Positions 10,235 through 49,470 of a DNA stretch of 50,918 nucleotides are shown here, in pieces. A program made the translations under genes and the position numbers. The stretch's first letter is position 1. Each line of letters begins with the position of its first letter. The notes beneath the pieces were generated by a model. That model was given only the letters and a program-made list of their open reading frames with translations. It had not been told where the DNA came from and ran no database searches. Origin of the DNA: a virus; the IMG/VR virus record IMGVR_UViG_3300042305_001936, positions 1 through 50,918 of that record; one strand, 5' to 3'.

Positions 10235-10264
10235 GGATCAGCTCATGGCACGCATCAAACCAGC

Positions 10265-11134: not shown

Positions 11135-11571
11135 GAAACTACGTCAAGAAAATCGCCATCCATTGTGAATTGAAACGGCACTACAGTAAGCTCTCCGGTG
11201 CTGACACTGATTCGAGCTTGAGTAATAAATGCGTAGAAAGACAAGTCATCAGCAGCTCCGCCGCCAACGTTGATTGTTAGCTTTACGCGGTCTGCGTCTG
11301 TAATTGCTCCTTTCTTGATTATGCGTTTGATGAGCTCAGTAAACTGAGCTTTCGTTGATTGCTCTTCTACAGTTTCAAGTCTGTAGTAAATCAGTGTGCC
11401 ACTTCCAGTTGCGCCTTTGACTCCAGGCGTAAAAGTATTAACTACGCTATCGATTGAGTTGGTAGATAAAAGCTCAACAGATACATCAAGTGAGACGTCT
11501 TTTAGCTTGGCTACAGGAACGTCGTTGAAGTCCAAATGGCCGGTGCGGCCGGTGTAGTAGCCCATGGCCAT
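11131..11571 (-). CDS. Tail-tube-like protein, 146 aa
   Basis: Begins MAMGYYTGRTGHLDFNDVPVAKLKDVSLD, with SVELLSTNSID and a closing beta strand pair (GELTVVPFQFTMDGDFLD). The pattern (short amphipathic strands, a loop naming a change in a bound property, then an insertion) is that of a tail-tube fold. The true start may be the second ATG at 11565. A second tube-like protein downstream of the tip gene is unusual, since the main tube is at 24235-25239; it may form a distal tail collar. A+T-rich like its partner. Confidence 0.65.
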   Translation of the reverse strand: MAMGYYTGRTGHLDFNDVPVAKLKDVSLDVSVELLSTNSIDSVVNTFTPGVKGATGSGTLIYYRLETVEEQSTKAQFTELIKRIIKKGAITDADRVKLTINVGGGAADDLSFYAFITQARISVSTGELTVVPFQFTMDGDFLDVVS

Positions 11572-11599
11572 TCCGTTGCATGATCGAAGTTTACGAACT

Positions 11600-22957: not shown

Positions 22958-23458
22958 CTACGGATCGTTCTCGGGGGGAGAGGTGAGCTGGGTGTAGACA
23001 TGCGCCGGAATCCGGCGTTCTTTGAAGAGCTGTGTGAGCAGCATGCGTGTTTCCGGGGTGGGGCCCACAGGCAGGGTGCGCTCCTGGAGGGGCTGCCACT
23101 CGGGGAAGGGCAGGAAATGGCGCAGCTCCACCTGAGGTTTGCCACCCTTGCCGCCGGCAAAGCCCCAGGCGATGTAGGCCATCTGGACGCCCAGCTTGCC
23201 GATGGAGGCGCTCTGGATGTTGGCCTGGCGCTGCTCTTCGCTCTCGAGGTAGAGCATGATCCCCCCGAGGGCGGAGATAGGTGTGCTCAGGAATCGCTCT
23301 CGGGGGAAGTCGGGGCCCAGGGCGGAGGTGCGGATGCGCAGGTAGAGGCGCTCCCAGTCGGGCTCAGGGGTGGAGAGCGCCTGGCGGACCTGGCTCAGCT
23401 GCGCGTCGAAGTCGAGCTCTTCTTGCTGGTGGACGAGGGCTCGCTCGTCTCGGGCTCG
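22958..23458 (-). CDS. T domain of the G-T tail assembly chaperone, expressed by -1 frameshift
   Basis: This frame continues the G gene after a -1 slip at 23458-23464: after GGG AAA it reads RARDERALVHQQEELDFD and then QVRQALSTPEPDWERLYLRI, ending LTSPPENDP. It has no start codon for its first two thirds (first in-frame ATG at 23257), so normal initiation would lose most of it. The fusion would be 163 residues of G plus 166 of T, 329 aa. In lambda the equivalent GT protein binds tape measure and tail tube subunits during tail assembly. Immediately upstream of the tape measure, as expected. Confidence 0.88.
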   Translation of the reverse strand, partial: RARDERALVHQQEELDFDAQLSQVRQALSTPEPDWERLYLRIRTSALGPDFPRERFLSTPISALGGIMLYLESEEQRQANIQSASIGKLGVQMAYIAWGFAGGKGGKPQVELRHFLPFPEWQPLQERTLPVGPTPETRMLLTQLFKERRIPAHVYTQLTSPPENDP

Positions 23459-23946
23459 TTTCCCTCAGAGGGCCAGCCGTGACGCTCCCAGTTGATGAAC
23501 GTGTGGATCTCGTTGATCAGGGGGCCAGGCATCGAGTCGGTGTCCTCGCTGGTCCAGTCGGTGGTGCGCACCCAGCCTTCGCCGGGCATGTCGGCCTCGC
23601 CGCGCATCTGCATGAAGGCGGTGACGATGGTGTCGCGCTGTTCGTCGGCGGTCATCACGCCGTCGGAGAGGGTCTGGACCTCTTCGGCGTACTGGAAGAG
23701 GTAGTCCTGGTTCTCGTCGCTGCTGATGGAGCTGAGAATTTTAAGAGCTTCGGAAGGCTTGATCTTGTGATCAGTGGCGATTTTCTGAGCAAGCTGCATC
23801 GAGCGGTAGGTGCTGCTCGCGTTCTCCTTGTTGATTTTGTTGAGACGCTTGCTTTCACCTGGCGTCAAGTCGTGGAAGACTGGAAAGCGAAACGAGCCGA
23901 TTTGGTGGTACTCTTCAGGCTCAAATAGAATGCTGTACTTGCTCAT
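23395..23946 (-). CDS. Tail assembly chaperone G, 183 aa
   Basis: Begins MSKYSILFEPEEYHQIGSF, helical and acidic, with LTPGESKRLNKINKENASS. It lies in the classical slot between the tail tube and the tape measure. In the zero frame it ends 20 codons past a GGGAAAC slip site; most ribosomes should give this short form and a minority the G-T fusion. The start overlaps the end of the 84-aa gene by 26 nt and lacks a clear Shine-Dalgarno, so it is probably coupled. Confidence 0.88.
   Translation of the reverse strand: MSKYSILFEPEEYHQIGSFRFPVFHDLTPGESKRLNKINKENASSTYRSMQLAQKIATDHKIKPSEALKILSSISSDENQDYLFQYAEEVQTLSDGVMTADEQRDTIVTAFMQMRGEADMPGEGWVRTTDWTSEDTDSMPGPLINEIHTFINWERHGWPSEGNEPETSEPSSTSKKSSTSTRS
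23432..23464 (-). promoter_or_regulatory. Programmed -1 ribosomal frameshift signal (slip site plus hairpin)
   Basis: On the coding strand GGGAAAC occupies 23464-23458, phased G GGA AAC with the G frame, an X-XXY-YYZ heptamer. After an 8-nt spacer, GACGAG (23449-23444) pairs perfectly with CTCGTC (23437-23432) around a 6-nt loop. Slip motif, phase, spacer and stem all fit bacterial phage -1 frameshift signals. Lambda uses the close relative GGGAAAG at the same gene junction. Confidence 0.9.
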
Positions 23947-27267: not shown

Positions 27268-28182
27268 TTAAGCCTTTTCCATCACCATGACGCTCTTCGG
27301 GTAGTAGAGCGCCAGGCCGCCGATGCGGGCGTGGGCTGCAACCGAGAACTCCAGGTTCTTGCGCAGGGGTGGCAGGAACTCCAGGGGCTGGGGGATGTGC
27401 AGCTGCAGCTTGTCGGGGCTGCGGTCGTACACGATGATCCGGTCCTTGGGCAGGTAGCCGCTGGACTTGGATGCCTCGAGCTCGTTAATGGGCTCAATGG
27501 AGTTGATCATCGGGTTGGTGCGGAGGAAGAACTCCATCACCGTGGTGTCCGAGGTGGTCGACCTCGGGGTGGTGCTGATGATGCGGTACACGTCGTAGGG
27601 CACCAGCATCGTGTTGGGCATCTCCTTCATGTTGGAGCCCTGCACCAGGCGGGTCGGGGCTTCGTTCAGGAGGGCCAGCATCTCGTCCGTGGTGGTCGAG
27701 CCGCCGAACCACTTGTCGGGGACAAGCTTGTCGACCTGATCGTTGTTGAAGAAGCCCTTCATGCCGGAGGCGGGCTCGCCGAAGTAGGCGATCTCCTGCA
27801 CCTTCTCCTCGTAGGAGCGGCGGGCGGCGTTGGCCCGGCGCTGCTCGAGGTTCATGCCGGGCACCATGGAGGCGGCCCTGGTTTCGTGGATGGTGTAGGC
27901 GAAGGAGCCACCGATCGAGCGAACCGGATGGGTGACTTCCTTCCGCAGCACGTCGGTGCGGGGCAGATCATCGGCGCGGTCGCCGATGATCTTCATGCTT
28001 CCCTGCTTGTCGAAGATGCGGTAGCTGAAGCTGTTGGCAGCAGCACCGACCTCGGTGGAGATGGGCAGCAGGGAGGCGTACTTGATGTCGGCGTACTCAA
28101 CCTCGAAGGTGCGGGCCAGGATGGTTTCCAGCTCGCGGGCAAGGAAGACGCCGACCTCGTCGTTACGGATTTGGGCGGGCAT
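27268..28182 (-). CDS. Major capsid protein, DUF2184 type, 304 aa
   Basis: Begins MPAQIRNDEVGVFLARELET. Features include ADIKYASLLPISTEVG and SFSYRIFDKQGSMKIIG, a spine-helix region LEQRRANAARRSYEEKV-QEIAYFG, and a C-terminus LHIPQPLEFLPPLRKNLE, GGLALYYPKS. The pattern matches the DUF2184 family of HK97-fold major capsid proteins. Shine-Dalgarno GGAG lies about 10 nt upstream. Preceded by cement and protease genes as expected. Confidence 0.88.
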   Translation of the reverse strand: MPAQIRNDEVGVFLARELETILARTFEVEYADIKYASLLPISTEVGAAANSFSYRIFDKQGSMKIIGDRADDLPRTDVLRKEVTHPVRSIGGSFAYTIHETRAASMVPGMNLEQRRANAARRSYEEKVQEIAYFGEPASGMKGFFNNDQVDKLVPDKWFGGSTTTDEMLALLNEAPTRLVQGSNMKEMPNTMLVPYDVYRIISTTPRSTTSDTTVMEFFLRTNPMINSIEPINELEASKSSGYLPKDRIIVYDRSPDKLQLHIPQPLEFLPPLRKNLEFSVAAHARIGGLALYYPKSVMVMEKA

Positions 28183-28826: not shown

Positions 28827-30122
28827 TTACTTGGTGGCGGTGAGGGGTCGCTTCCAGGCGTCCTGCACCTTGGAGCGATAGGTCGAGCTCGGGTCAGCGG
28901 AACGGCGGCCGGCGCCCCGGAGAGCGGTGCGGAGTGGTTCGCTGCTGTCAGCGCGGTCGTCCTCGTCGTCTTCACCGAGGTCGTCCTCGGGGGAGTCGGG
29001 GGCTTCGCCTTCCTCGTCTGTGTCGTCCTCGGGGGAGTCGGCGCGGGTGGCGAGGATGCCGTCGACGACGCCCTGGATGTAGGCGGGGGCGGCGTCTTCA
29101 CGGGGGGCGGAACCGGTGAGGTTCTCGAACGCCTGCTTGTAGAGGGCCTCGTCGTCGATGCCGTCGAACTTGAAGTCGTCGGCGAAGGCGGGGGCCAGCT
29201 GGCGGAGGGTGTTCAGGCGAGCGGTGACGAGCTTGTCGAGCTCAGCGGTGTCGAGGCGGGCGGGTTCGGCGGAGAGCTCGTCGACGCGCTTCTGGAGCTC
29301 GGCGACTTTGTCATCGGCCTCTTGCTTCTCGTAGAGAGTGCCTTCGAGATCTTCCTGCAGTGAGTCGAACTTCGACTGGAGAGAGTCGCGTTCGGTGGTG
29401 ACAGCTTTGAGCTGGCGCTCCAGGTCCCTGGCGAAGGACTGGACCGCCGTTGCTGCTTCTGCGGGGAGGTCGATCTCCAGGCCGTCCAGTTTGACGGTGG
29501 CCATAGCGGGAGATGCAGTGGTTGGGGAACGGAGCGCCGGCCCGCCGAAGCGGGCTGCTGCGGGGTCGATGGCCACTGCGTCGGCAGCGTCCAGGCGATC
29601 GAGCAGCAAACGGACCTCGGGGCCTGCGCGGCCTCGGGGGACGATGGCGATGTGGTTGACGCGGATGTTCCGTTGGATGCCGTCGTAGGACTCGCCCTCG
29701 GGGGTGATGCCGGGGGTGGGGTCGTAGTCGACTTTGTAGCCAGCGGAGACTTCGGTGGCGTCTTTGCGCTTGATGCGTTCGATGGCGTCTTTGTCTGTAA
29801 CGACAAGCGCTACTTCGACAAAGCCGTCGTTGAAGCGGACCTGGCTACCGGAGTAGCCGGTTTGGAACTTCTTGGTGTTGTCGGCATCAAGTAGTACGGG
29901 AGGGTGGCCCCACGTAACGGGTTTCATCCCGAACGTGGCAAGAGAGTCAGGGTCGCTGACTTCTTCAGCTGGGCGATACTCCCGTACTTGCGAACCATCA
30001 GCGCGACGATAAAGTTGAGTGCCAACACGGGCAGCTCTACACCACACACGGAGGTAGCCCTCCTCGGTGGTTTCACTCCGGGTAATGGGAGCGAAATCGA
30101 AGCGATGAACTGATGTGTCCAT
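28827..30122 (-). CDS. Prohead protease (DUF2213-like) fused to scaffold, 431 aa
   Basis: Starts MDTSVHRFDFAPI (ATG 30122; a GTG two codons earlier is also possible). The N-terminal 190 residues carry VTWGHPPVLL, with candidate catalytic His, and TEVSAGYKVDYD, with candidate catalytic Ser, then VNHIAIVPRGRAGPEVRLLL, the DUF2213 protease layout. The C-terminal half is scaffold-like: coiled coil (DSLQSKFDSLQEDLEGTLY), acidic run (EDDTDEEGEAPDSPEDDLG) and basic tail. It should shape the procapsid and cleave head proteins. Contains RADS twice in the acidic part. The start codon overlaps that of the divergent XRE gene. Confidence 0.85.
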   Translation of the reverse strand: MDTSVHRFDFAPITRSETTEEGYLRVWCRAARVGTQLYRRADGSQVREYRPAEEVSDPDSLATFGMKPVTWGHPPVLLDADNTKKFQTGYSGSQVRFNDGFVEVALVVTDKDAIERIKRKDATEVSAGYKVDYDPTPGITPEGESYDGIQRNIRVNHIAIVPRGRAGPEVRLLLDRLDAADAVAIDPAAARFGGPALRSPTTASPAMATVKLDGLEIDLPAEAATAVQSFARDLERQLKAVTTERDSLQSKFDSLQEDLEGTLYEKQEADDKVAELQKRVDELSAEPARLDTAELDKLVTARLNTLRQLAPAFADDFKFDGIDDEALYKQAFENLTGSAPREDAAPAYIQGVVDGILATRADSPEDDTDEEGEAPDSPEDDLGEDDEDDRADSSEPLRTALRGAGRRSADPSSTYRSKVQDAWKRPLTATK

Positions 30123-30399
30123 GCTCACAGATTACGGGGTTTTGATGGAGCAAGTAGCCTTAGTCGATGAGCGAATAGATCCAGTGGCAATCCACAGGCA
30201 GTTAATGATCTGCAGGCGTATTCGGGGTTTGCGCGAGAGGGCTGGACTGACGCAAAATGAGGTCGCAGAGAAGCTGTGCGTCAGTCAGGCTGCGTATTGC
30301 AGGCTGGAGAGGGGTGAAATTGAGATTTCGCTTACACGGATGATCGCTTTGGGCGAGTTATATGGCGTTCCGCTGCATTCTTTGTTGGAGGGTCTCTAG
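30121..30399 (+). CDS. XRE-family helix-turn-helix regulator, 92 aa
   Basis: One of only two well-supported plus-strand genes. The DNA-binding domain is LRERAGLTQNEVAEKLCVSQ then AYCRLERGE, a canonical lambda-repressor-type HTH, ending in LGELYGVPLHSLL. Possible starts are GTG 30115, ATG 30121 or ATG 30145; none has a good Shine-Dalgarno. The ATG at 30121 shares the palindrome CATG with the protease start on the other strand. It could be a late-gene or lysogeny regulator, or an antitoxin-like partner of the kinase, with which it converges. All roles are inference. Confidence 0.85.
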   Translation: MLTDYGVLMEQVALVDERIDPVAIHRQLMICRRIRGLRERAGLTQNEVAEKLCVSQAAYCRLERGEIEISLTRMIALGELYGVPLHSLLEGL

Positions 30400-30476: not shown

Positions 30477-31862
30477 TCAGCGGGTGCCGGTGGCGACGAT
30501 CGGAGTGCCGAAGGGTTGCTGGCGTTGCTTGGCCAGGCGGGCCTTGCGCTCGGGGGCGAGGGCCTTCCAGAGTTGGGCGGGTTTGAGGCCCAGGTTGGCT
30601 GCGCCCTGGCGGAAGAGCGTCGGCTGCTGCCGATTGACCTGTTCAAGCACCTGGCGCTGGAAGGTGTTGGCGTTGGCTGAGAGGATCCGGGCAGTCAGGC
30701 CAGGGATGCGCGGTTGATCGGCGCCGCTGACGAAGCGGGAGCGGGGGCGGCGGACGTCCCAGAGGAGCTCGGCCTCGAGGTAGTCGTGGTAGCGGTTGAC
30801 CGCTAGTTCGTACTTCTCCCAGTTGCGGCTGTAGTTTTCAGCTTGCTCGAAGATGTTCTCTCTAACCGAGTTGGTACGCGACTCAATATCTCGTGCATCT
30901 AGTCCGACAAACCACGGGAGAACGTTGAGGTCCGTGCCCAGCGTATCAATCCCGTCGACGCCGCTGTTCACGTTGCGAGGACTGTCGATCTCGGTGGCGT
31001 AGCCGAAGTCGACCAGGGCGACGCGGCGGGAGCGGGGGTGGACCATCACGTTGCCGCCGTGGATGTCGCCGTGGGCCAGGCCGGCGATGTGCAGCTTGCG
31101 GAACTCCCGCAGGGCCTTGACCTTGACGATGTCTGGGGCTCCGGCGATGGTGCCGGGGCGGGAGCCGCCGTAGATGTCGCCGGCCTGGATGTAGCCGTCC
31201 ATGTGGCGCAGCACCATGGTCTGGTACTGGGTGTCGCCGAAGCGGTCTCGGGTGGCGTTGATGGAGAGGGGCTCCGGGGCGTTCACGCCGGCCGCATGAG
31301 CCTTGCCGAGGAGCTCGAACTCATCGCCGATGTCGACGTCGGCGTCGCGGAAGAGCTTGACCCCGTACTTGCGAGAGGTGTGGACGAAGTAGGTGCCGAA
31401 TGCACCTTCCCCGGCTTGGCAACGCGGATTGGGGATCGCCGCGTCAAACTTCGCCGGGGCCTGGAGCTTTCCCAGGCCGCCTCCGCAGAAGGCAGCGTTC
31501 TCAGCCTTGCGGCGGGCGTTGATCTTCTCCTGGACGTCCCAGACTTCGCCGCCGGCAATGGCCTCGTCGGTGATGCGCTTGGCGTCCTCGGGGGAGAGCT
31601 TGGGGTTGGTGCGGGCGTTGCTGGGGTGGGCGGCCCACTCCTCCGCAGTCATGGGCTTGCTGCGGGGTTTTCGTTTGGACAATAGAGTCGCTCCTAGTGC
31701 TAAGGCACCTGTGACAGCAGCGATTGTACCTCCGGTCTTGATAGTTGCTGGAGTTAAAAAGGCTGTGCCTTTGCTGCACTTATGGGAGCGAGGGATGTGG
31801 GAGGAACCGCAGGGCTTGCCCTTGCCGCCCTCGGGGGCGTCGAGCGTTACCAGGCGGAGGAC
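30477..31862 (-). CDS. Protein kinase domain with cysteine tag and TM, read by -1 frameshift from the 111-aa gene
   Basis: 461 codons from the slip point; with 107 residues of the upstream gene the fusion is 568 aa. Numbered in the fusion: tag C125-C136 (CGSSHIPRSHKC), hydrophobic segment 150-168, glycine loop GEGAFG 258-263, Lys 276 (YGVKLF), catalytic HGDIHGGN 371-378, DFG 392-394, then about 170 residues of helical C-terminus. All core kinase residues are present, so it should bind ATP and may phosphorylate host proteins. The frame extends upstream to a GTG at 31934, inside the 111-aa gene and without Shine-Dalgarno, so frameshift entry at GGGAAAG is preferred. A kinase in a head-gene block is unusual. 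Confidence 0.82.
   Translation of the reverse strand, partial: VLRLVTLDAPEGGKGKPCGSSHIPRSHKCSKGTAFLTPATIKTGGTIAAVTGALALGATLLSKRKPRSKPMTAEEWAAHPSNARTNPKLSPEDAKRITDEAIAGGEVWDVQEKINARRKAENAAFCGGGLGKLQAPAKFDAAIPNPRCQAGEGAFGTYFVHTSRKYGVKLFRDADVDIGDEFELLGKAHAAGVNAPEPLSINATRDRFGDTQYQTMVLRHMDGYIQAGDIYGGSRPGTIAGAPDIVKVKALREFRKLHIAGLAHGDIHGGNVMVHPRSRRVALVDFGYATEIDSPRNVNSGVDGIDTLGTDLNVLPWFVGLDARDIESRTNSVRENIFEQAENYSRNWEKYELAVNRYHDYLEAELLWDVRRPRSRFVSGADQPRIPGLTARILSANANTFQRQVLEQVNRQQPTLFRQGAANLGLKPAQLWKALAPERKARLAKQRQQPFGTPIVATGTR
31776..31811 (-). other. Cysteine tag 5 (kinase protein)
   Basis: Twelve codons reading CGSSHIPRSHKC. Preceded by GGKGKP and followed by SKG and, after 10 residues, a hydrophobic helix. 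Fits C-G-x3-[IV]-x4-[KD]-C. Confidence 0.85.
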
Positions 31863-32182
31863 TTTCCCGGCGTGAGGCCCTGGTCGCGGCGGGAGGTCTT
31901 GCCGGAGCACTTCCACTTGGCGCGGGAGAGGCACAAGGGGGTGTTGCGGTCAGGGCCGGCGCAGTTCTTGTTGTGCGACTTCATGTCGCCGAAGGAGCGG
32001 GCGCAGTAGCGGTCGCCTTTGGAGGTGCCGGGGGCGATGCGGTAGCCCTTGGCGCCGTAGCGGACACGGCGCTTGCGGCCGGTCTTGGGGTTGGTGACGG
32101 TCTTGGTGTATTTCTTGCCGTCCTCGGTGTCGAAGCCGGTGGCCCAAGTGTCGAGGCGGAGGGTGCGAGGGGTGAGGGCCAC
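31847..32182 (-). CDS. Cys/Lys-rich protein, 111 aa; N-terminal part of the kinase fusion
   Basis: Begins MALTPRTLRLDTWATGFD. This resembles the start of the 1,517-aa protein (VALTPAALRTDKRTSG), so both carry an ALTPxxLRxD head. Then a basic beta region (YTKTVTNPKTGRKRRVR) and four cysteines (YCARSFGDMKSHNKNC, TPLCLSRAKWKC) that could bind a metal, followed by the slip site near the C-terminus. It could act alone or as the leader of the kinase. It starts 3 nt after the 212-aa gene stops. Confidence 0.75.
   Translation of the reverse strand: MALTPRTLRLDTWATGFDTEDGKKYTKTVTNPKTGRKRRVRYGAKGYRIAPGTSKGDRYCARSFGDMKSHNKNCAGPDRNTPLCLSRAKWKCSGKTSRRDQGLTPGKSSAW
31862..31868 (-). promoter_or_regulatory. 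Candidate programmed -1 frameshift heptamer GGGAAAG
   Basis: On the coding strand the heptamer is phased G GGA AAG with the 111-aa frame, four codons before its TAA stop (31849-31847). A -1 slip continues exactly into the kinase frame (G-K-V-L-R-L-V-T-L-D). It is the same heptamer as in lambda G/GT. A small GC hairpin (CGCCC/GGGCG, 31826-31839) lies 22 nt downstream, farther than usual, so efficiency is uncertain. Confidence 0.65.
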
Positions 32183-32185
32183 GGC

Positions 32186-32824
32186 TCACACGTTGAGCTG
32201 GCTGTAGTCCATGGTGAAGCCTTTGGCGTAGACGCCGTCGCGGTAGCCCACGCTGCGGCGCCACTTCTTCTCCTTCTTCTCGTTCATGGCGTGCTGCTGG
32301 AGGTCGGTGGGGCCGAAAGCGCCGACGCGGCGGGCGGCACCGAAGCCGGCCTGAGGGCCGAGGAGCAGGGTCGAGGCCGCCACGGCACCGACCTTGGAAG
32401 AGCCGGAGCCCTGTTGGTTCTTGCCGCCGGTCATGCCCGTGGCGATGAGCTTGCCCAGGTTGTAGCCCGAGGTCCACTTGACGGTCTCGAGAGCTCCTCG
32501 ACCGATGTTTTTGGCTACCTGGCCAGCTTGAACGGCTGCGCTGGGGCCCTTGTGGCACTTTTCACCTTTAGAAATAGCGCCCTTGCCACACTTGAGGTCG
32601 AAGCGATCAGCAGAGTCAGCGTTAAAGCCCTCTGCATACATGGATTTCTTGGCTTTCTTTTTCTTGCCCTTCATCTTGGCGCATTTGCTGCAGTTGCCGC
32701 TCTCGCAGTCGCAGCTGCCTTTTTCGCCGTCAGCCGTGGGCTGGGACTTTCGGGCTCGGGGGGAGTCCATGGTGCCTTTGCGTGTAGCACTTTCAAATGG
32801 CTTAGTAGCAGCAGTACGGGCCAT
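32186..32824 (-). CDS. Cysteine-tagged protein, 212 aa
   Basis: The basic N-terminus is followed by a CDCESGNCSKCAK cysteine cluster (about residues 38-49), a Lys-rich run (KGKKKKAKK), then MYAEGFNADSADRFD and tag 4 at residues 79-90. A Gly/Ala-rich, weakly hydrophobic segment follows (VGAVAASTLLLGPQAGFGAA). The C-terminus repeats the YAEGF motif as VYAKGFTMDYSQL. No enzyme domain seen. A DNA-binding or membrane-active virion protein is possible; unproven. Confidence 0.75.
   Translation of the reverse strand: MARTAATKPFESATRKGTMDSPRARKSQPTADGEKGSCDCESGNCSKCAKMKGKKKKAKKSMYAEGFNADSADRFDLKCGKGAISKGEKCHKGPSAAVQAGQVAKNIGRGALETVKWTSGYNLGKLIATGMTGGKNQQGSGSSKVGAVAASTLLLGPQAGFGAARRVGAFGPTDLQQHAMNEKKEKKWRRSVGYRDGVYAKGFTMDYSQLNV
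32555..32590 (-). other. Cysteine tag 4 (212-aa protein)
   Basis: Twelve codons reading CGKGAISKGEKC, directly preceded by DSADRFDLK and followed by HKG. Fits the same pattern and exact spacing as the other tags. Confidence 0.85.
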
Positions 32825-32842
32825 GGAGAAACTCTCTGTGAT

Positions 32843-35800
32843 TCAGCTTACCGAGGGCGAAGCTGCGGCCGATGCGCGTAACGCTCGCTTACGGGCCTCG
32901 GAATAGGACAGCTCCGGGTTCCGGCGACGGCTCGCAGCGATGCGATTGCTCAATGAGGTCGGCGGGCTCGGGGGGCGCACGGGTTTGCGCACAGCGGGCT
33001 GGGTCTGGGCCTGCAACTCCTGCCGGAGTTCCCGAGCACGGCGCTTGACGGCGGCAGGGTTGTAGCCGCCGTACCACGTGTCGATCATGCGCTCCTCGAT
33101 CTCGGTGCGGATCGTGGCTTTGATCGCTTCCTTGGCTGCACCATCGCTGGCAAGGAGCTTGGTGCGGTACTCGGAGAGCTTGGTGGTGGCTGCGTTGCCG
33201 TACAGCGTGGTCAGATCGCCCTCGGGGGGTTTGTTGGTGCTGGTGCGCCAGACGATTTCGTCGACCAGCTCCTGAGAGCGTTTCTTGTCGACCGTCAGGA
33301 AGGTGTAAGCCTCGCGCTGCAGCTGCTCGTCGAGGAGGTAGCTGCGCTTGGCCTTGACGTTCTCCTTGGCGCGGGATCCTGTGCGGGCGTTGTTGGGGTC
33401 GATCCCGTCCATCAGGCCATGGGGAATCTTGTCGTTGGCCAGCTTGTTCACCTGGCTGCCTTGAAACGCCTGGCCAGCGCTCATCTGCCAGAAGCCGTCG
33501 CCCTCAGAGACCCAGGTCTGCATGTTCTCGGGCTTGTGCTTGAACATGCCGAACGTGGGGCCGGCGATGTTCACCACCTTGACGTCCCGGTAGCCCATCT
33601 CCGTGAGAATGGCCAGGGCCTCGGAGGCGGCGCTGCCTCCGTTGCTGTAGCTCATCATGTGGACCGGCTTGCCTGTGAGGCGCCGCTGCGCAGCCACGAA
33701 AGCGGCGATCCGCACCGCATCTGGATTGAAGCCGCGCTGATCCACATTGGTGCGGAGGTAGGAGAATCGGCCGGGGAGCTGGCTGAGCGTGCGGACGGTC
33801 TCGGTGATGGCGCGGCCTCCTTGACCCGTGACGGCCTCAACCCGCTGCGCCAGCTTGTTGAAACGCAACTCGTCGAGGTCATCCGGGGCCAAGGTGTTGG
33901 GCTGCGAGATGTTGTTGGCGTAGGGGAGGATGTCATGCTCGCCCCAGATCTTGTTGAAGGCGCCGCTGGAGGCCATTTTGAAGCTGCCCTGGCCGCGAGT
34001 AGTGAAGCGACCGTCGTCCGCATAGGACAGCATCACAACAGCCCCACGTGAGTTTTTGGTCTGGCCGAAGAACTCAGAGCTGTTATCTGTGCCGGAGAAG
34101 CCACGATCATAGCCTTTGTCTTTAAAGTTATAGACAGAAGCTTCGAAGCCACTAACATTTTGCACTGGTTTTTTCAGCCGTGCAGCGGCGTCTTCTCTAA
34201 AACTACGCTCGTACTCTTTCGCGAGCTTCTCTGCTTCGATAGCAGACTTAGCGACATTCGACCTGTATTTCTCAATTCTCTGCTGACTACGAATGTGCTT
34301 GTGAAAAGCCAGAGCAGCTCCAACCGTGGCAACACCGGCGCCCACCTGGGCTACTCGGTTGGTGGCGAGCTGCGTCACAGCCTTTGTCGCTAGACCGCCC
34401 TCGGGGGTGGCAGCAGCTGTGGGGACGTGGCACTTGCGGTTGTCCGGGATGCCGGATTTGCCGCAGCGCTTGTCCATGCGGGCACTGTCGCGGCGGTCAC
34501 CGTTCTGCCGGAGAAGCCAGGCCACCCCCTCGAGTTCGTCGTCTTCGAAGCGGGAGAACTTGCCCTCGCGTTTCACTGCCCAGAGGTTCTCCTGGTTCAT
34601 GCCTGGCAGGGACTGGAAGCCCCATTTCGAATAAACACGCGAGCGCTTGCCCCCGAGACCGTCATCCTTGTAGGCCGTGACGGAGATCAAGCTGTTGTCA
34701 GGGATCTGCTCGACCTGTTTGTTGAACATCGCCTTGGTTGAACGCACCAGACGTGCGCTCTGCTGCGGCGTCAGATTCTCCTTTTGGCTGTTCTTGAGAT
34801 CGACCGTGAAATCCATGATGTAGCGGCCGGCCTTTTGGCCGCCCCCGGTGTCGATGGGCGTGTCCGAGTGCGATCGAAAGAGCAGCAGAGAGTCATCCAC
34901 GCTGCCGATTGTCAGGTAATGGCCTCCAACATGCTTGAACGTCGAGAAGTTGTTCTTAACATCCACGTCGATCAGCGTGCTGCTGTCAGCGCGGAGAACC
35001 ATGGCAGCGGCGCCAACCTTGGCCCGGCCTACCAGGGAGCGTGTCTGCTGCTGCCACTCCTGTGGAACCTTGTTCAGCCCATCCTGGACCTGCTTGCTCG
35101 ACAAAGCGTTGATCGTGGTGATGCCGGTGACGAGCTGCGCACGGTTGTAGGTGCGTGCCGCCTGATTGCGAGCCGCTTGACCTGTGCGGCGGGCCGCACG
35201 ACCTGCCATCCGAGCACGAACAGATGCTTGCCGGTAGAGATCGGGGTTGGCTCGTTTGACAGCTGCACCGATTCGTCTTCGGTTGCGATACAGCGCAGCG
35301 CCACCCGTTACAACCCCAGCAGCGGCTGCGACCTTGGCGGCGCGTTCGGCGATGGAGCCGACTTTCTCGCTGGTCTCTTTGCTGACGCTGTGGGAGCGCT
35401 TGATGCGGTTGGGGATGTAGCCGGCCGGGTAGGTGCGCCGTCCTCGGGGGGTAGTGCCGGGTCGGGGCTGGGGGCGGTCGGCGTAGCCACGGGAGGTGGG
35501 CTTGCTGCACTTGCGCTGCTTCGTCACGAAGCTCTTGCCGCAGGGCTTGCCGGTGCGCTGGTTGGGTGGGGTGTAGTCCAGGCGGGCGGCGTCGGTGCGG
35601 CCCTGGCGGCGGCGCAGTTCGGCGATGGCGGCCTCGGGGGTGGCGTAGCGCGGGGTGCCGTCCGGGTTGCGCTCGCGCTGGATGTCCTGGAGGCGAGCGG
35701 CGGCGCTGCGGCGGCGGGCCGGCCTCGGGGAGGTGGCCGGGGAGGTGGCCGGGGAGGTGGCGGCGGCGGCCGGGCGGGGCCGGGCAGCGGCGGGGCGCAC

Positions 35801-37396
35801 CAGGGTGATCTCGCGCAGGCGGTTGGGGCGGGCGTCATCGCCGCCGGCCAGGGCCTGGTTGAGCAGGGTCAGAGCCTCGGGGACGGTGCCCGGTTCGACG
35901 CGGCCCTGGCTACGGGCGATCTCGGAGGCGGCGGTGAGCGCTTCGGTGCCGGTGAGCGCCACGCTGGTCTTGAACAGGCGCTTCTCCGTCATCACGCGGG
36001 AGGCGTGGTACGCCTTCTTGATCACGGTGGCCGTGCCGGTGCCGCTGAGGGGGCCGGCGTCGAGGCCCATGCGGCGGGCCAGGACGTCGGCGTGGGCCAG
36101 GGTGCCGTCGCGCCAGAACGACTGGGAGCGCAGGTCGCTGGGGACCCGGATGCCGGGGCGGTCGGTGACGGTGGTGCTCAGGCGGCGGAAGAAGGCGTCG
36201 AAGCCGCCCAGGGTGGAGCGGTAGATCTCGCGGGCCTGGGTGCTGTAGTTGTTGTTGAGCACGGCGACCTCGAGGGTCTCGTTGACGCGGAGGCGCGTGC
36301 TCGGGGGGAGCTGGGGGTCGGGCGGGACGGTGCGCAGGTAGCTGCGGACGGCCTCGGGGGAGGAGGGGTTGAGGCCGGCCTGCTGCATGGAGGTGCGGAT
36401 CGCCTTGCCTGATTCGCGCAGCCGCTCGCTGATGGTGCCGACGAGGTCGTTGGCCTGGGTGGTGAGGGTCTGGGACGCTTTGGGGGGCAGGCCGAAGCTG
36501 CGGCTGAGCAGGTTGTTGGTGGCGGTGACCGAGAAGACGCTGGTGCCGGCGTCGGAGGGGATCCAGTCGGGGCCCAGGCTGCGGGGACGCTCGGTGGACC
36601 AGAAAGCCTGGAGGGAGCGGTCCTCCCATTCGCTGTAGCTGAGCTTGCTGGGCTTGCCGTTGAGCGTGTCCACGCTGCGCAGGGAGCGGATCACGGCCAT
36701 GCGGCCCTCGTCGCCGGCCTGGCGTTGCTCGGCGGCGATGCGCTGGAGGAAGTTGCCGGTGCTGGCCTGGCGGGTGGCGGCCTCGATGCCGGTGGACTCG
36801 AGGTTGCGCTGGATGTTGGCCTGGCCGCGCACGGCTGAGGGGCCGGCGGCCTCGCGGGCGCGGACGTTGGCGCCATAGCCGAAGGGCACGTTGCGGGCAA
36901 CGGTGCGGAAGGCGGAGCCGACGGCTTCATCGATCTGGCGGCCGGGCCCCTCGCGGTAGCCCCGGAAGGACTTCAGGCCCTTGTGGCTGAGGGCGGCGAA
37001 GATCGCGACGGTGACCGGGGCGCCCACGGCGAGGCCGTAGTTGTAGACGGTCTGCTGGAGCTCTTTCTTCTTCTGCAGATCGGCGGGCGAGAGCTTGGCG
37101 GCGCCCCGGGCCAGGGCGCGGCGGCCACCTTCGATCTCGGTGAAGCTGAGCTTGACGGCGCCCTTGCCGATGCGGGAGAGGCCCCGCTCGATGTTGGCGA
37201 AGCCGGCGATGGGGTCCGAGCCCTTGCCGGCGGCTTTCAGGTGGTTGTCGTTGCCTTCACCCCGCAGGCGGCAGTCCCACGAGGGCGGAATGCAGCGGTT
37301 GCCGCATTTGCGGTTGGGTGGGTTGCAGCGAAGCGTGCCCGACGTCCGCTTGTCGGTGCGCAGAGCAGCTGGAGTGAGTGCAACGAAATCGCTCAT
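32843..37396 (-). CDS. Giant modular virion protein with lipase-like and acetyltransferase-like regions, 1,517 aa
   Basis: The ATG at 37396 lies just after the portal stop. Tags occur at residues 31-42, 619-630 and 978-989 and split the protein into three modules. Module 1: helical, no enzyme seen, with a hydrophobic stretch near residues 105-120. Module 2: hydrophobic segment, then an alpha/beta region ending RVYSKWGFQSLPG, like the end of GNAT acetyltransferases. Module 3: hydrophobic segment (QVGAGVATVGAALAF), then an alpha/beta hydrolase-like region with nucleophile elbow MMSYSNGGSA (near residue 1,250), a later VSEGDGFWQ (Asp) and KIPHGLMDG (His), a plausible Ser-Asp-His lipase triad. 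It occupies the slot after portal where Mu F-like proteins usually lie. Likely an internal or ejected virion protein. Confidence 0.8.
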   Translation of the reverse strand: MSDFVALTPAALRTDKRTSGTLRCNPPNRKCGNRCIPPSWDCRLRGEGNDNHLKAAGKGSDPIAGFANIERGLSRIGKGAVKLSFTEIEGGRRALARGAAKLSPADLQKKKELQQTVYNYGLAVGAPVTVAIFAALSHKGLKSFRGYREGPGRQIDEAVGSAFRTVARNVPFGYGANVRAREAAGPSAVRGQANIQRNLESTGIEAATRQASTGNFLQRIAAEQRQAGDEGRMAVIRSLRSVDTLNGKPSKLSYSEWEDRSLQAFWSTERPRSLGPDWIPSDAGTSVFSVTATNNLLSRSFGLPPKASQTLTTQANDLVGTISERLRESGKAIRTSMQQAGLNPSSPEAVRSYLRTVPPDPQLPPSTRLRVNETLEVAVLNNNYSTQAREIYRSTLGGFDAFFRRLSTTVTDRPGIRVPSDLRSQSFWRDGTLAHADVLARRMGLDAGPLSGTGTATVIKKAYHASRVMTEKRLFKTSVALTGTEALTAASEIARSQGRVEPGTVPEALTLLNQALAGGDDARPNRLREITLVRPAAARPRPAAAATSPATSPATSPRPARRRSAAARLQDIQRERNPDGTPRYATPEAAIAELRRRQGRTDAARLDYTPPNQRTGKPCGKSFVTKQRKCSKPTSRGYADRPQPRPGTTPRGRRTYPAGYIPNRIKRSHSVSKETSEKVGSIAERAAKVAAAAGVVTGGAALYRNRRRIGAAVKRANPDLYRQASVRARMAGRAARRTGQAARNQAARTYNRAQLVTGITTINALSSKQVQDGLNKVPQEWQQQTRSLVGRAKVGAAAMVLRADSSTLIDVDVKNNFSTFKHVGGHYLTIGSVDDSLLLFRSHSDTPIDTGGGQKAGRYIMDFTVDLKNSQKENLTPQQSARLVRSTKAMFNKQVEQIPDNSLISVTAYKDDGLGGKRSRVYSKWGFQSLPGMNQENLWAVKREGKFSRFEDDELEGVAWLLRQNGDRRDSARMDKRCGKSGIPDNRKCHVPTAAATPEGGLATKAVTQLATNRVAQVGAGVATVGAALAFHKHIRSQQRIEKYRSNVAKSAIEAEKLAKEYERSFREDAAARLKKPVQNVSGFEASVYNFKDKGYDRGFSGTDNSSEFFGQTKNSRGAVVMLSYADDGRFTTRGQGSFKMASSGAFNKIWGEHDILPYANNISQPNTLAPDDLDELRFNKLAQRVEAVTGQGGRAITETVRTLSQLPGRFSYLRTNVDQRGFNPDAVRIAAFVAAQRRLTGKPVHMMSYSNGGSAASEALAILTEMGYRDVKVVNIAGPTFGMFKHKPENMQTWVSEGDGFWQMSAGQAFQGSQVNKLANDKIPHGLMDGIDPNNARTGSRAKENVKAKRSYLLDEQLQREAYTFLTVDKKRSQELVDEIVWRTSTNKPPEGDLTTLYGNAATTKLSEYRTKLLASDGAAKEAIKATIRTEIEERMIDTWYGGYNPAAVKRRARELRQELQAQTQPAVRKPVRPPSPPTSLSNRIAASRRRNPELSYSEARKRALRASAAASPSVS
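34430..34465 (-). other. Cysteine tag 3 (before the lipase-like module)
   Basis: Twelve codons reading CGKSGIPDNRKC, preceded by RRDSARMDKR and followed by HVP. Starts the third module of the 1,517-aa protein. Confidence 0.85.
35507..35542 (-). other. Cysteine tag 2 (before the acetyltransferase-like module)
   Basis: Twelve codons reading CGKSFVTKQRKC, preceded by DAARLDYTPPNQRTGKP and followed by SKP. Starts the second module. Confidence 0.85.
35727..35762 (-). repeat. 3 x 12-bp tandem repeat (last unit imperfect)
   Basis: Unit ggggaggtggcc, encoding ATSP steps (ATSPATSPATSP) in a Pro/Ala/Arg-rich linker of the 1,517-aa protein, just before tag 2. Likely a variable-length hinge. Confidence 0.85.
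37271..37306 (-). other. Cysteine tag 1 (N-terminus of the 1,517-aa protein)
   Basis: Twelve codons reading CGNRCIPPSWDC, preceded by LRCNPPNRK and followed by RLRG. Same spacing as the other four tags but with an extra central Cys and Asp in place of Lys. Confidence 0.8.
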
Positions 37397-37397
37397 T

Positions 37398-38900
37398 TTA
37401 TGGCTCCAGCTCGGGCTCCACGGGGAGGTCTTCAACAGGCTCAGTCTGACTGAGATCGCCAGGTGGAGAAGTAGCGCCGTCCTCGGGGGGAGTCTCTTCC
37501 TGGGGAGGCTGCATGGAGCGCTGCATGTTGACGAGTTCAGCCTGAAACTGGATGTCTTCTTTGACTTTCATCCGCTCCGTAGCTGTTTCATCAAGCGTGG
37601 TTTCGTAGGAGTATTCCTGACCGCCGAAACGTGCCATGCGGACTTCCATGGGTGTGAGAACACCGTTGGAGAGGTATTGGACATCAATGTCTTGCGCCTT
37701 TTTGCGCACATCCAGCTTCTCCTCGTCGGTCTGGGTGAAGACGGAGGGGAAGAGGACGGACCAGGCGGGCGGGACGCGGCCTCGGGTGGGGCCTTCGGTG
37801 CTGGAGAGGATGTAGGTGAAGACCTGGGTGATGGGGCTGCGGCAGTAGACCTCTTGCCATTGCTCGACCAGGGAGGCCCAGACGCGCTCTTCGAAGCGGC
37901 CCTCTTTGCCCAGGCCGCCGGGGCTGGTGCCCATGAGGATGGAGGCGGGCCAGCCGGTGGCGGCCTGGAGCTCCTGGATGAAGGGCTCGGTGGCGCTGGC
38001 CAGGTTGGAGAGGGCGCGGTTGATGAAGTCGACCTCCTCTTCCTTGTCGACGACCATGCCGCCGTACATCGAGCGGCTGAGGGCGTTGGCTTCCAGGCGT
38101 TTGCGGATGTCGGCTTCGCCGCCGGCCGCCAGGCGCTGGAACAGGCCGGGGATCTTGTGGACGAACAGGTCCGAGTCGTTGGTCATGTTCTCGAGGCCGC
38201 TCATGGCGGTCTCGTAGCGCTTGAAGGCATCCCACACCAGTTGGAGAACGGACATGCCCCAGCCGGTGTTCTGGCTGCGCAGGTTCCAGGGCAGGTAGAG
38301 CCCGTCGAAGCGGGCGACCCGGGTGTGGTGGACGATCAGGTTGGTCGTGATCTCGGTCTGGTCTTCGGTGAGGCGCTGGTTGGTTGAGATGCGGTAGTGG
38401 GCCGGCTTGCTCCAGTCGGTGAGGGTGACGTCCTCGGGGATGAGCTCGTGGCGGGAGAGGGGGATGAAGCCGCGCACAGCGCGGAGGCGAGCGGGGTCGA
38501 CCGGCTCCTCCGGCTTGCGGCCGTCATCGAGGAGCAGCACCAGGCCGGCACCGCCGTAGAGACGCTGAAGCTTGACGACCTCGGAGAAGGCGTGGTGGAA
38601 GTTGGAGTCCTGGAGGAACGCCTCGAAGTCGTTGATCAGCTTCTGGCTGCGCTCTTCAGAGAGGTTGTCGTCTCCGAGTTTGATGGTGGTGCGGTGGCGC
38701 AGGATCTCGTCGGCGATGGAATCGACGTAGCGGCGGGGGATGCCATTTACATATAAAACTTCGAGTTCGGTTTCAGACAGCAAAGTGCGGCTGGATACGC
38801 GAGTTGCAGTCGTCTTGTCTTTACTGGGCAAGCCCAGACCTGTGATGACATTGACAAGAGCGCCATCATTGCGAGTGTCAGTAGCGTTATCTGTAGGCAC
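37398..38900 (-). CDS. Portal protein, DUF1073-like, 500 aa
   Basis: Start GTG at 38900 (MPTDNATDTRND). Signatures: YVNGIPRRYVDSIADEILR near the N-terminus, LQRLYGGAGLVLLLDDG, a WGMSVLQLVWDAFKRYETA stem helix, LENMTNDSDLFVHKIPGL, and ATGWPASILMGTSPGGLG. These are the order and motifs of DUF1073 portals, the ring through which DNA is packaged and ejected. The C-terminal tail is Pro/Glu-rich. It follows the large terminase with the HNH gene between them on the opposite strand. The first 150 bp are A+T-rich and no Shine-Dalgarno is obvious. Confidence 0.9.
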   Translation of the reverse strand: MPTDNATDTRNDGALVNVITGLGLPSKDKTTATRVSSRTLLSETELEVLYVNGIPRRYVDSIADEILRHRTTIKLGDDNLSEERSQKLINDFEAFLQDSNFHHAFSEVVKLQRLYGGAGLVLLLDDGRKPEEPVDPARLRAVRGFIPLSRHELIPEDVTLTDWSKPAHYRISTNQRLTEDQTEITTNLIVHHTRVARFDGLYLPWNLRSQNTGWGMSVLQLVWDAFKRYETAMSGLENMTNDSDLFVHKIPGLFQRLAAGGEADIRKRLEANALSRSMYGGMVVDKEEEVDFINRALSNLASATEPFIQELQAATGWPASILMGTSPGGLGKEGRFEERVWASLVEQWQEVYCRSPITQVFTYILSSTEGPTRGRVPPAWSVLFPSVFTQTDEEKLDVRKKAQDIDVQYLSNGVLTPMEVRMARFGGQEYSYETTLDETATERMKVKEDIQFQAELVNMQRSMQPPQEETPPEDGATSPPGDLSQTEPVEDLPVEPELEP

Positions 38901-41340: not shown

Positions 41341-41949
41341 TTAGATGCGAGCAGTAACAACGCCGTGCTCTTGGTTTTGATACTTGCCGGCGCGAGCTGC
41401 GTAGCTGGTGGCACAAGGCTCGCCTTTGAAGAAAACGGCTTGAACAATGCCTTCGTTGGCGTAGATGCGGCAGTCAGCACCAGCGGAATTGCTGAACTCA
41501 AGAGTGAGGTGACCTTTCCAACCAGCTTCACCGGGTGTGAGATTAGCAATAACTCCGCACCTGGCGTATGTAGATTTGCCGAGGAATAGGGCAGTGACGT
41601 CCTCGGGGATGCAGAGCCGCTCCAGGGCCACACCGAGGCCGTAGCTGTGGGCGGGGAGGACGAAGTAGTCGCCCTGGAGCGGGTCGTTGTAGAGGGGGGC
41701 GGGAGCCAGGTTGGCCGAGTTGAACGCCTTGGGGTCGACGATGGTGCCGGGGATGTGGCGGAAGACCCAGAACTCCTTGGGAGAGAGGCGGAGGTCGTAG
41801 CCGTAGGAGCTGCAGCCGTAGGAGAGGAGGCGGCGCTTGAAGGGGCCGCCAAGGCTGACATCCAGCTCCCGGACCAGCTCCGGTTCAAAGGGGGTGATCA
41901 TGCCGGCGGCGGCGAGATCCCGGATGTCGATGTCGTTGAGGATGGTCAC
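41341..41949 (-). CDS. dcd: dCTP deaminase, 202 aa
   Basis: Converts dCTP to dUTP, feeding dTTP synthesis or lowering dCTP. Signatures: SYGCSSYGYDLRLSP, the conserved GKSTYARCG nucleotide-binding loop, and GHLTLEFSN, which holds the catalytic Glu. Length is normal for the family. The start appears to be GTG (41949). It sits between small early-type genes and the terminase, 4 nt downstream of a CTCGGGGG copy. Whether it is mono- or bifunctional (dUTPase) is unclear. Confidence 0.92.
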   Translation of the reverse strand: MTILNDIDIRDLAAAGMITPFEPELVRELDVSLGGPFKRRLLSYGCSSYGYDLRLSPKEFWVFRHIPGTIVDPKAFNSANLAPAPLYNDPLQGDYFVLPAHSYGLGVALERLCIPEDVTALFLGKSTYARCGVIANLTPGEAGWKGHLTLEFSNSAGADCRIYANEGIVQAVFFKGEPCATSYAARAGKYQNQEHGVVTARI

Positions 41950-48393: not shown

Positions 48394-49470
48394 TCACACC
48401 AGGGCGAGGCAGGCTTCGCGGGCGCGGTCGATGCGCTTGGCGGAGCTGCCGCCCCAGAGGCTCTCCAGGCGGGCGCGGGCCCGCTCGGTCTCGTCCTTGG
48501 CGCGGCCAGCGTCGTGGGTCTCGAACTGGGTGATGGAGTTGAAGAGGGCGTAGGCGGTGCCGCGCACGCCTTCGAGCTGGGTGCCCATGCCGGTGGAGCC
48601 GGCGTAGTGGCTGCGGATGGTTTCGACCTCGGGGAGGTCGGCCAGGGTGCGGGGGCGCTTGGTGTCGGTGGTCCTGTCTCGGATGGGGGTGGCGAGCTTG
48701 TCGGCGAATGTGGCCTCGAGGACGCGGCGGGCGATCTCAGGGGTGAGCTGCACCGTGGTGAGGGCACGCATCTGGTCCAGGGTCTGGGCGAAGCTGCGGC
48801 GCTCCAGGTTGATGAGTTGGGGGAGGGACGAGGCGAAGGCGGTGACCGAGCTGGTGTGCTTGCGGCGGAGGCCGGAGCCGTCGGAAACGGCCTGGGTAGA
48901 CGCCTTGCCGGTGAGATGGGTCAACTGATTGGCGCAGAAGAGGCGGACGTCGGAGAAGAACGCGCCGAAGCCACTGGAGCCGTCGTGGGAGTTGAACAGG
49001 TGGATGTAGCGACGGATGCGGTCACCGGGGACGACTTCGCCCTCGGTGGAGATGGAGGCGGTGGCGAAGACCTTGCGGCCCCCACGGATGGCCAGGACGG
49101 ACTCGATCTGGATGTCCTCCCGGAGGTAGTCCAGGAGGTTGATCAGGGCGCTGTTCTGGACGGGGGTGTAGCCCGAGCCGTGGATGCCCAGGCACTGGTC
49201 GTTGTCGGAGCGCACGATGGAGCAGTGGTCTCGGGACTGGATAGGTCCGTCGGCGCCCAGGAAGTAAACGGGACGCTTCTCGGCAGTCCAGTTGAGGCCG
49301 GCGATCTCGAAGGCTTCGCTGGCGGAGACGTTCTCGGGGACGAGGGTGCCGACCTGGGCGGTGAGGGGGTTCACGGCGTAGCCGCGCTCGCGGTACTTGC
49401 CGTAGACGAGGGGGCCCTTGCCGTCGGCGGCGTAGGCGGTGGAGACGGAGTTGGGGGCGAAGGTACGCAT
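48394..49470 (-). CDS. DUF932 family protein, 358 aa
   Basis: Family signatures include VYFLGADGPIQSRDHCSIVR, LGIHGSGYTPVQNSALINLL and FFSDVRLFCANQLTHL, with a later MGTQLEGVRGTAYALFNSIT. DUF932 proteins are widespread in phages and plasmids, often highly expressed early. No enzymatic function is established to my knowledge; a DNA-associated role has been suggested from context. Length is usual. Strongly G+C-rich. Confidence 0.85.
   Translation of the reverse strand: MRTFAPNSVSTAYAADGKGPLVYGKYRERGYAVNPLTAQVGTLVPENVSASEAFEIAGLNWTAEKRPVYFLGADGPIQSRDHCSIVRSDNDQCLGIHGSGYTPVQNSALINLLDYLREDIQIESVLAIRGGRKVFATASISTEGEVVPGDRIRRYIHLFNSHDGSSGFGAFFSDVRLFCANQLTHLTGKASTQAVSDGSGLRRKHTSSVTAFASSLPQLINLERRSFAQTLDQMRALTTVQLTPEIARRVLEATFADKLATPIRDRTTDTKRPRTLADLPEVETIRSHYAGSTGMGTQLEGVRGTAYALFNSITQFETHDAGRAKDETERARARLESLWGGSSAKRIDRAREACLALV

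Follow-up and report, generated by a model that had tools for sequence, protein, structure and literature searches.

The genes lying between the portal and the head protease in a stretch of virus DNA of 50,918 nucleotides (IMG/VR record IMGVR_UViG_3300042305_001936, positions 1-50,918; hereafter the window) are marked by a short cysteine tag. At the sequence level the units that carry it have a fixed order: an R-x-D tripeptide, a tag with two or four cysteines, a hydrophobic helix rich in glycine and alanine, and a variable payload. The block is probably a polymorphic set of host-takeover effectors with a common entry module, which would be packaged into the phage head, matured by the head protease and ejected. 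The minus strand of the window encodes, in this order, TerL, the portal, the tagged genes, a DUF2213 head protease with its scaffold, a small protein, the major capsid protein and the tail genes. The phage family consists mostly of uncultured members, which probably infect cyanobacteria. The host of the window is also probably a cyanobacterium, because of relatedness to cyanophages, and as judged by relatedness alone. No description of the tag was found in a literature search restricted to open papers.

The cysteine tag and its distribution

The strict pattern C-G-x3-[IV]-x4-[KD]-C matches the window five times, always in long sense frames, and has no match in any other frame; the positions listed in the earlier note proved exact. 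Three tags belong to a protein of 1,517 amino acids (aa) encoded by the open reading frame (ORF) next to the portal gene (32843-37396, ATG at 37396; this and all other genes of the window mentioned here are on the minus strand). The protein starts with MSDFVALTPAALRTD (37352-37396), which fits an LTP-R-x-D pattern and is a candidate head-targeting peptide and cut site. Its first tag, identified by pattern match and alignment, is a four-cysteine form, CNPPNRKCGNRCIPPSWDC (37271-37327, 12-residue core at 37271-37306), and hydrophobicity analysis places a first hydrophobic segment, YGLAVGAPVTVAIFAALSH, at 36983-37039. Tag 2, CGKSFVTKQRKC (35507-35542), is preceded by a double R-x-D (RTDAARLD, 35576-35599) and followed by the segment AAKVAAAAGVVTGGAALYR (35285-35341). 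The same order is found around tag 3, CGKSGIPDNRKC (34430-34465), flanked by the double R-x-D RRDSARMD (34472-34495) and by VAQVGAGVATVGAALAFHK (34298-34354). Tag 4 (32555-32590) resides in a 212-aa protein (32186-32824), matched by no Pfam or PHROG family, between an R-x-D (DSADRFD, 32597-32617) and a hydrophobic segment (32336-32392). Tag 5 (31776-31811) precedes a kinase-like domain.

For comparison, 80 IMG/VR loci were collected by portal similarity, without using the tag as a criterion, and are numbered with their sense strand as plus strand. Tags were found in 72 of the 80 loci, with 255 occurrences in long plus-strand ORFs and none in long minus-strand ORFs. In these loci and the window the interval between portal and protease holds 264/264 tags, none lying before, within or after the two bounding genes. 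A second search, seeded by the tag itself, led to 77 loci, in which 362 positions fit the same interval and none falls outside; five antisense matches, random-looking, were also obtained. When 12 long relatives were scanned over their full length, the tags turned out to be clustered, with a few isolated matches elsewhere, and a reversed control pattern gave almost none. Scattering at random over unrelated proteins, the outcome that the earlier note had set against its own proposal, was thus not observed. In one locus (L081:1545-7380) portal and protease are separated by 2.7 kb of other sequence with no tags, possibly a tag-free state.

Tags mark cultured cyanophages too, as the earlier note had suspected. 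The Aphanizomenon phage CL131 encodes gp048 (L194:13706-19141), a protein of 1,811 aa that lies beside the tape-measure gene and is annotated as hypothetical. It combines three hydrolase-like modules with hydrophobic helices and bears five tags. In the Planktothrix phage PaV-LD tags occur seven times, twice inside the portal-protease interval; several of its tagged proteins hit a PHROG with the name minor head protein, and one (ORF079) carries ADP-ribosyltransferase domains (PF01129, 2.4e-5). Across the two phages the tags are mostly preceded by R-x-D. S-CBS4, which by its portal is the closest cultured phage (39%), has no tag, and the tag system is therefore not universal in this portal family. 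Searches by tblastn of phage records, either with a 1,530-aa ORF or with a 76-aa tag segment, gave no match, the tag being too brief and too divergent for them; tags in phage records were detected by a nucleotide pattern search over whole records.

The tag is conserved at the protein level, while the DNA is diverse. The spacing of the original pattern holds, and the consensus can be refined to C-G-x-[SGR]-x-I-[PS]-x3-x-C, with I at 98%; the position given as [KD] also accepts E, T and N. The four-cysteine form, to which tag 1 belongs, has extra cysteines seven residues before and four residues after the first tag cysteine. These two residues (Cys1 and Cys3) are both present in 40 tags, both absent in 153, and never found singly, and no further cysteines occur from position -12 to +25. 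Because Cys1 and Cys3 are kept or lost together, the simplest reading is that they would form one disulfide, which is dispensable, and Cys2 and Cys4 another. Tag 1 is modelled as a beta hairpin in the prediction of the first module, with a predicted local distance difference test (pLDDT) score of about 70. The four cysteines could also be viewed as a zinc finger; this is less likely, as two of the four are lost jointly and the other two kept.

Downstream of the tag, the hydrophobic helix seen in the window is a general feature. A Gly/Ala-rich hydrophobic stretch of 19 residues lies within 108 residues of 86% of the tags; the control values are 0.6% for the rest of these ORFs and 6.8% for untagged ORFs. 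The tag might be regarded as a mere conserved recombination seam, or a fast-evolving repeat, with no role as a protein element, and the swaps described below do break at it. The conservation of the protein in spite of diverse DNA, the strict pairing of Cys1 with Cys3, the fixed order of R-x-D, tag and helix, and the finding of the same motif in distant cyanophages make this interpretation very improbable.

The R-x-D element and the head protease

The segment rich in R and D noticed ahead of the window tags is real, and is better defined as an R-x-D element. Of 208 distinct tags, 204 have R-x-D in the 40 residues ahead of them, versus 12% of control 40-mers (Fisher test); here and in the other comparisons p-values overstate significance because the sequences are related and thus non-independent. 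The element has preferred distances from the tag, with D at -3, -6, -10/-11 and -22/-23. Many proteins of the block begin with LTPxx[LIV]RxD. The LTP-R-x-D arrangement occurs 73 times in long plus-strand ORFs, mostly at ORF starts, and is followed by a tag in 53 cases; none was found on the minus strand.

R-x-D also marks the head proteins themselves. In the window portal (37398-38900; PF06381, E 1.7e-57; phrog_146, 1.6e-86) it lies at the N-terminus (DTRNDGALVN, 38850-38879), and is retained there in 69 of the 72 relatives examined. The major capsid protein (27268-28182; PF09950, 9.2e-55) has an N-terminal QIRNDEVG (28150-28173), and R-x-D is found at this place in all 11 aligned family relatives; the same site reads FRMD/EAGLFL in S-CBS4, TRLD/ADEIGTF in PaV-LD and IRMD/APTIGAF in CL131. 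The head maturation protease with its scaffold (DUF2213, 28827-30128; PF09979, 1.3e-43; phrog_530, 1.2e-87) contains many conserved R-x-D[AST] motifs, repeated in the scaffold part. The motif R[LMFYA]D[AST] is enriched 18-fold in the protease/scaffold and 4.5-fold in tagged ORFs, versus 0.6-fold in the portal and 0.1-fold in TerL.

Since both the portal and the capsid protein carry R-x-D N-terminally, and the protease/scaffold contains it as well, it is probably a head-protease cut site. The DUF2213 protease would probably cut the portal, the capsid protein and its own scaffold after R-x-D as well. Cleavage after R-x-D would have the same P3-x-acidic geometry as known head-protease sites. The SPN3US head protease cuts after A-x-E (PMC10052503), that of phiKZ after S/A-x-E, and T4 has a similar motif, L/I-x-E (PMC9026906). 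In SPN3US and phiKZ numerous head and ejection proteins are cut on the C-terminal side of such short x-acid motifs (PMC10052503, PMC9026906); the acid is Glu there and, as predicted, Asp here.

These data modify the view of the tag as a sorting or delivery signal. A delivery role and the head-gene context have strong support from the comparisons made. The candidate for targeting and processing is instead the upstream R-x-D, which is often part of LTPxxLRxD, and tag and helix would form the new mature N-terminus. Packaging of the tagged proteins into the head is quite likely. The tagged proteins might otherwise be late-expressed, membrane-anchored effectors, acting for example in superinfection exclusion or host control, that merely share the head operon, tag and helix being their anchor. 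The strong association of tag and hydrophobic helix fits such a role, and no headline motif proves packaging. R-x-D is, however, common to portal, capsid protein and scaffold, the family of the window confines its tags fully to the head block, and enzymes for host takeover would bring little benefit at a late stage of infection, all of which makes unpackaged effectors a rather improbable explanation.

Payloads, their exchange and the frameshift site

The modularity claimed from the window alone, one tag on many different payloads, is borne out by the relatives. Pfam searches of 63 representative tagged relatives identified domains of the protein-kinase-like (8), LRAT (5), DnaJ (5), NlpC/P60 (4) and ADP-ribosyltransferase (2) types, as well as alpha/beta-hydrolase and DUF5872 domains. 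The ADP-ribosyltransferases reside in loci L059 and L015, where PF03496 scores over the gathering threshold (1.1e-6 and 4.8e-6, respectively), and both match phrog_832, named RNA polymerase ADP-ribosylase.

Payloads may be exchanged at the tag. The DNA flanking the last gene before the protease is 95-97% identical on both sides in L006 and L015. The two loci are the same from the frameshift site through the tag, and diverge from two codons past the last tag cysteine to the end of the gene, which encodes a kinase in L006 and an ADP-ribosyltransferase in L015. In this one case the payload swap breaks exactly at the tag edge. The same slot is filled by a different ADP-ribosyltransferase in L059, and by a third kind of payload in L032.

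In the window, the payloads of the 1,517-aa protein differ from module to module, and the whole protein matches no Pfam family at E<1. The first module is all-helical in the predicted structure and was found by clustering in 73 loci; fold searches returned nothing significant in PDB or viral models. A search for its motif in genome contigs gave a single 14-residue match in an archaeal bin, taken as chance. The payload domain of module 2 (34529-35146) aligns with seven relatives at 29-42% identity. It had been called GNAT-like, which neither Pfam nor PDB profiles confirmed, as no match was obtained with either; toward the C-terminus it is similar to the payload in the last slot of L032 (E 0.001). 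The lipase-like label given to the tag-3 module (32846-34501), an alpha/beta-hydrolase payload with the motif SYSNGG (33593-33658), is supported because the module is homologous to the first module of CL131 gp048 (BLASTP E 4e-8, through tag, helix and hydrolase), a protein that matches serine esterase/lipase families.

The tagged proteins could also be structural cargo, packaged and cut, that stays in the head as core, portal vertex or capsid lining, with payloads that are structural or directed to the phage itself, no effector being ejected. Gene location and R-x-D would be the same, and the first module, helical, widespread and of no known fold, sits at the place of the MuF minor head protein (PMC5576092). 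The payloads, however, are enzymes, with intact kinase motifs and ADP-ribosyltransferase domains, and are exchanged between near-identical phages; for these reasons effectors fit better than structural parts, and a purely structural role is considered unlikely, although less so than the lack of packaging discussed above.

The last position of the window block is occupied by a kinase. The payload features HGDIHGGN (31050-31073) and DFG (31002-31013), conserved in aligned relatives, matches PF01636 (1.6e-9), and has a kinase fold by Foldseek against PDB (E 6e-7). The kinase assignment of the earlier note is therefore correct, but what was taken as a separate protein of 485 aa is very probably the -1 frameshift extension of a 111-aa ORF and not the product of a separate start. 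The zero-frame product (31847-32182) has the leader LTPRTLRLD (32150-32182) and a C-terminal domain with four cysteines. Near its end the slippery heptamer G_GGA_AAG (31862-31868) lies in frame, and the stop codon is a few codons away. The -1 frame (30477-31868) runs from there into tag 5, a hydrophobic helix (31677-31733) and the kinase, and the 485-aa ORF has no good start. The fused product would measure 568 aa.

G_GGA_AAG is invariant at 21 distinct aligned sites. No ATG, GTG or TTG is found after the heptamer in 20 of them, and in seven none is found between the stop of the -1 frame and the tag. Independent translation from such codons is hence ruled out in these seven relatives; in the window itself GTG codons do occur upstream of the kinase tag, and a GTG start is possible there. 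The domain of the 111-aa protein forms the end of 51 distinct ORFs. Those followed by a tag all have the heptamer (17/17), and 29/34 of the others lack it; of the remaining five, L082 does have a tagged -1 ORF, its tag lying farther downstream. G_GGA_AAG is highly shift-prone in E. coli, the -1 shift yielding a minority long product (PMC5009743).

The four-cysteine domain of the 111-aa protein (31907-32011; YGAKGYxIAPGTxKGDxYCARS...KWKCSGK) is a small domain of wide occurrence in phages; S-TIM5-type cyanomyophages (in S-TIM5 at 153270-153524), roseophages and vibriophages have it with no tag. A second heptamer, G_GGA_AAC (23458-23464), lies near the end of a 183-aa ORF (23395-23946) in the window, with a -1 ORF of about 170 aa just before a 2,071-aa gene of tape-measure size; this is the usual tail assembly chaperone frameshift.

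Proposed delivery route and relation to known systems

Tagged proteins and polyproteins would be produced together with the late head genes, and at the last position of the window block the -1 shift at G_GGA_AAG would give a minority of long products bearing the kinase. The proteins would enter the prohead, probably by means of the N-terminal LTPxxLRxD leader, and the DUF2213 protease would cut after R-x-D, so that each mature module begins at or near its tag. The tag would fold into a hairpin pinned by the Cys2-Cys4 disulfide, and by Cys1-Cys3 in the four-cysteine form, ahead of the Gly/Ala-rich helix. At infection the modules would leave the head with the DNA, and tag and helix may help insertion or anchoring at the host membrane. 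The payload (kinase, ADP-ribosyltransferase, lipase, LRAT/NlpC, DnaJ and others) would then act on the host. The tag would also serve as boundary for payload swaps by recombination. The earlier note had deduced loading and ejection from the position between portal and protease; the position holds throughout the family, and loading and ejection both stay predictions from sequence. Ejection into the host is probable, although to a lesser degree than packaging, while the membrane role of tag and helix is nearly balanced between likely and unlikely, leaning slightly to the latter.

Several observations weigh against this route. The window kinase shows T-L-D where its relatives carry R-x-D. AlphaFold confidence is low for the two-cysteine tag, and a hydrophobic segment is missing near most tags of PaV-LD. 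The tag arrays of CL131, and part of those of PaV-LD, sit between the capsid and tape-measure genes; the strict portal-protease position is therefore lineage-specific. No covarying stem or conserved RNA structure was found downstream of the frameshift heptamer; a downstream stimulatory structure is not obligatory for -1 frameshifting.

The closest parallel is found in T4, where a short N-terminal peptide, the capsid targeting sequence (CTS), which ends in a P3-x-acid site, sends diverse proteins to the head and is removed by gp21, and an ADP-ribosyltransferase is among the ejected proteins (PMC9026906). This enzyme, Alt, modifies RNA polymerase and sets a precedent for ADP-ribosyltransferases in phage heads (PMC5512222, PMC9026906). 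The tagged proteins are similar in having a common leader, LTPxxLRxD, on otherwise unrelated proteins, a head protease gene nearby and ADP-ribosyltransferase payloads. They differ in the site, R-x-D rather than L/I-x-E, and in the cysteine tag and hydrophobic helix that follow the predicted cut. To our knowledge T4 has no counterpart of tag and helix. Modules of the window type reside also in polyproteins, one payload is reached by a putative frameshift, and packaging is a prediction here. No match to T4 internal protein (IP) families is listed for the tagged proteins, and the LxE motif was not found.

MuF polymorphic toxins are encoded right after the portal and combine a conserved N-terminal part with variable toxin-like C-terminal parts, ADP-ribosyltransferases included (PMC5576092). 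The adjacency of portal and 1,517-aa protein, seen also in relatives, and the variable C-terminal enzyme domains recall this arrangement. The tag, in contrast, marks many genes, and several sites in one gene. Neither PF04233 nor PF06152 was found in the 1,517-aa protein or among the families listed for the 63 tagged relatives, and hhalign gave a probability below 1% against two minor head proteins. Membership of the first module in the MuF group was accordingly rejected.

Polyvalent proteins (Iyer et al. 2017) are large, multidomain and encoded beside head genes, are thought to be packaged and injected, and feature ADP-ribosyltransferase and GNAT domains (PMC5512222, PMC7824862). Several effector domains per polypeptide next to packaging genes are found here as well, with three modules in the window protein and five tagged modules in CL131 gp048. 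A repeated tag-helix unit before each payload, and payloads residing also in separate genes, set the present proteins apart. The main text of the polyvalent-protein paper (PMC5512222) does not contain the word cysteine and describes no cysteine tag. Among the top families listed for the tagged proteins there is no named match to the signature domains (MPTase, LPD, DdrB-like ParB, PBECR), not all of which have Pfam models. The frameshift resembles those of the lambda G/GT type in its shift-prone heptamer and minority long product (PMC5009743), but would fuse an enzymatic payload of the head block to a small leader protein, the usual tail-chaperone site being separate. The tagged proteins work like T4 CTS proteins, MuF toxins and polyvalent proteins, yet by the tests made belong to none of these groups, and open papers gave no description of the tag.

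As a rule, effectors delivered by virions come to light singly, since they bear no common sign. With a short mark to search for (R-x-D, CG-x3-I-x5-C, helix), whole effector repertoires would be exposed in genomes and metagenomes, including many effectors with no recognizable domain, and packaging into capsids would become testable by simple fusions. The R-x-D element predicts the specificity of the DUF2213 head protease family, the modules suggest a natural cassette system for bringing foreign proteins into capsids of cyanobacterial phages, and the frameshift site offers an example of how copy number might be set by a phage for a single payload. More tentatively, and with doubt outweighing confidence, R-x-D leader, disulfide-pinned tag and membrane-inserting helix might be a general delivery code of cyanophages, routing any payload into the capsid, through the tail and to the host membrane, with cassettes swapped at the tag and dosage set in part by frameshifting. 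If true, this would be the phage-head counterpart of effector repertoires based on secretion signals.

Outside the block, the window contains a DUF932 gene (48394-49470) and a dCTP deaminase-like gene (41341-41949). From 10001 to 12000 the guanine-cytosine content drops to 47%, versus about 63% around; this stretch, which covers the ends of genes of the tail region, is possibly recently acquired sequence.
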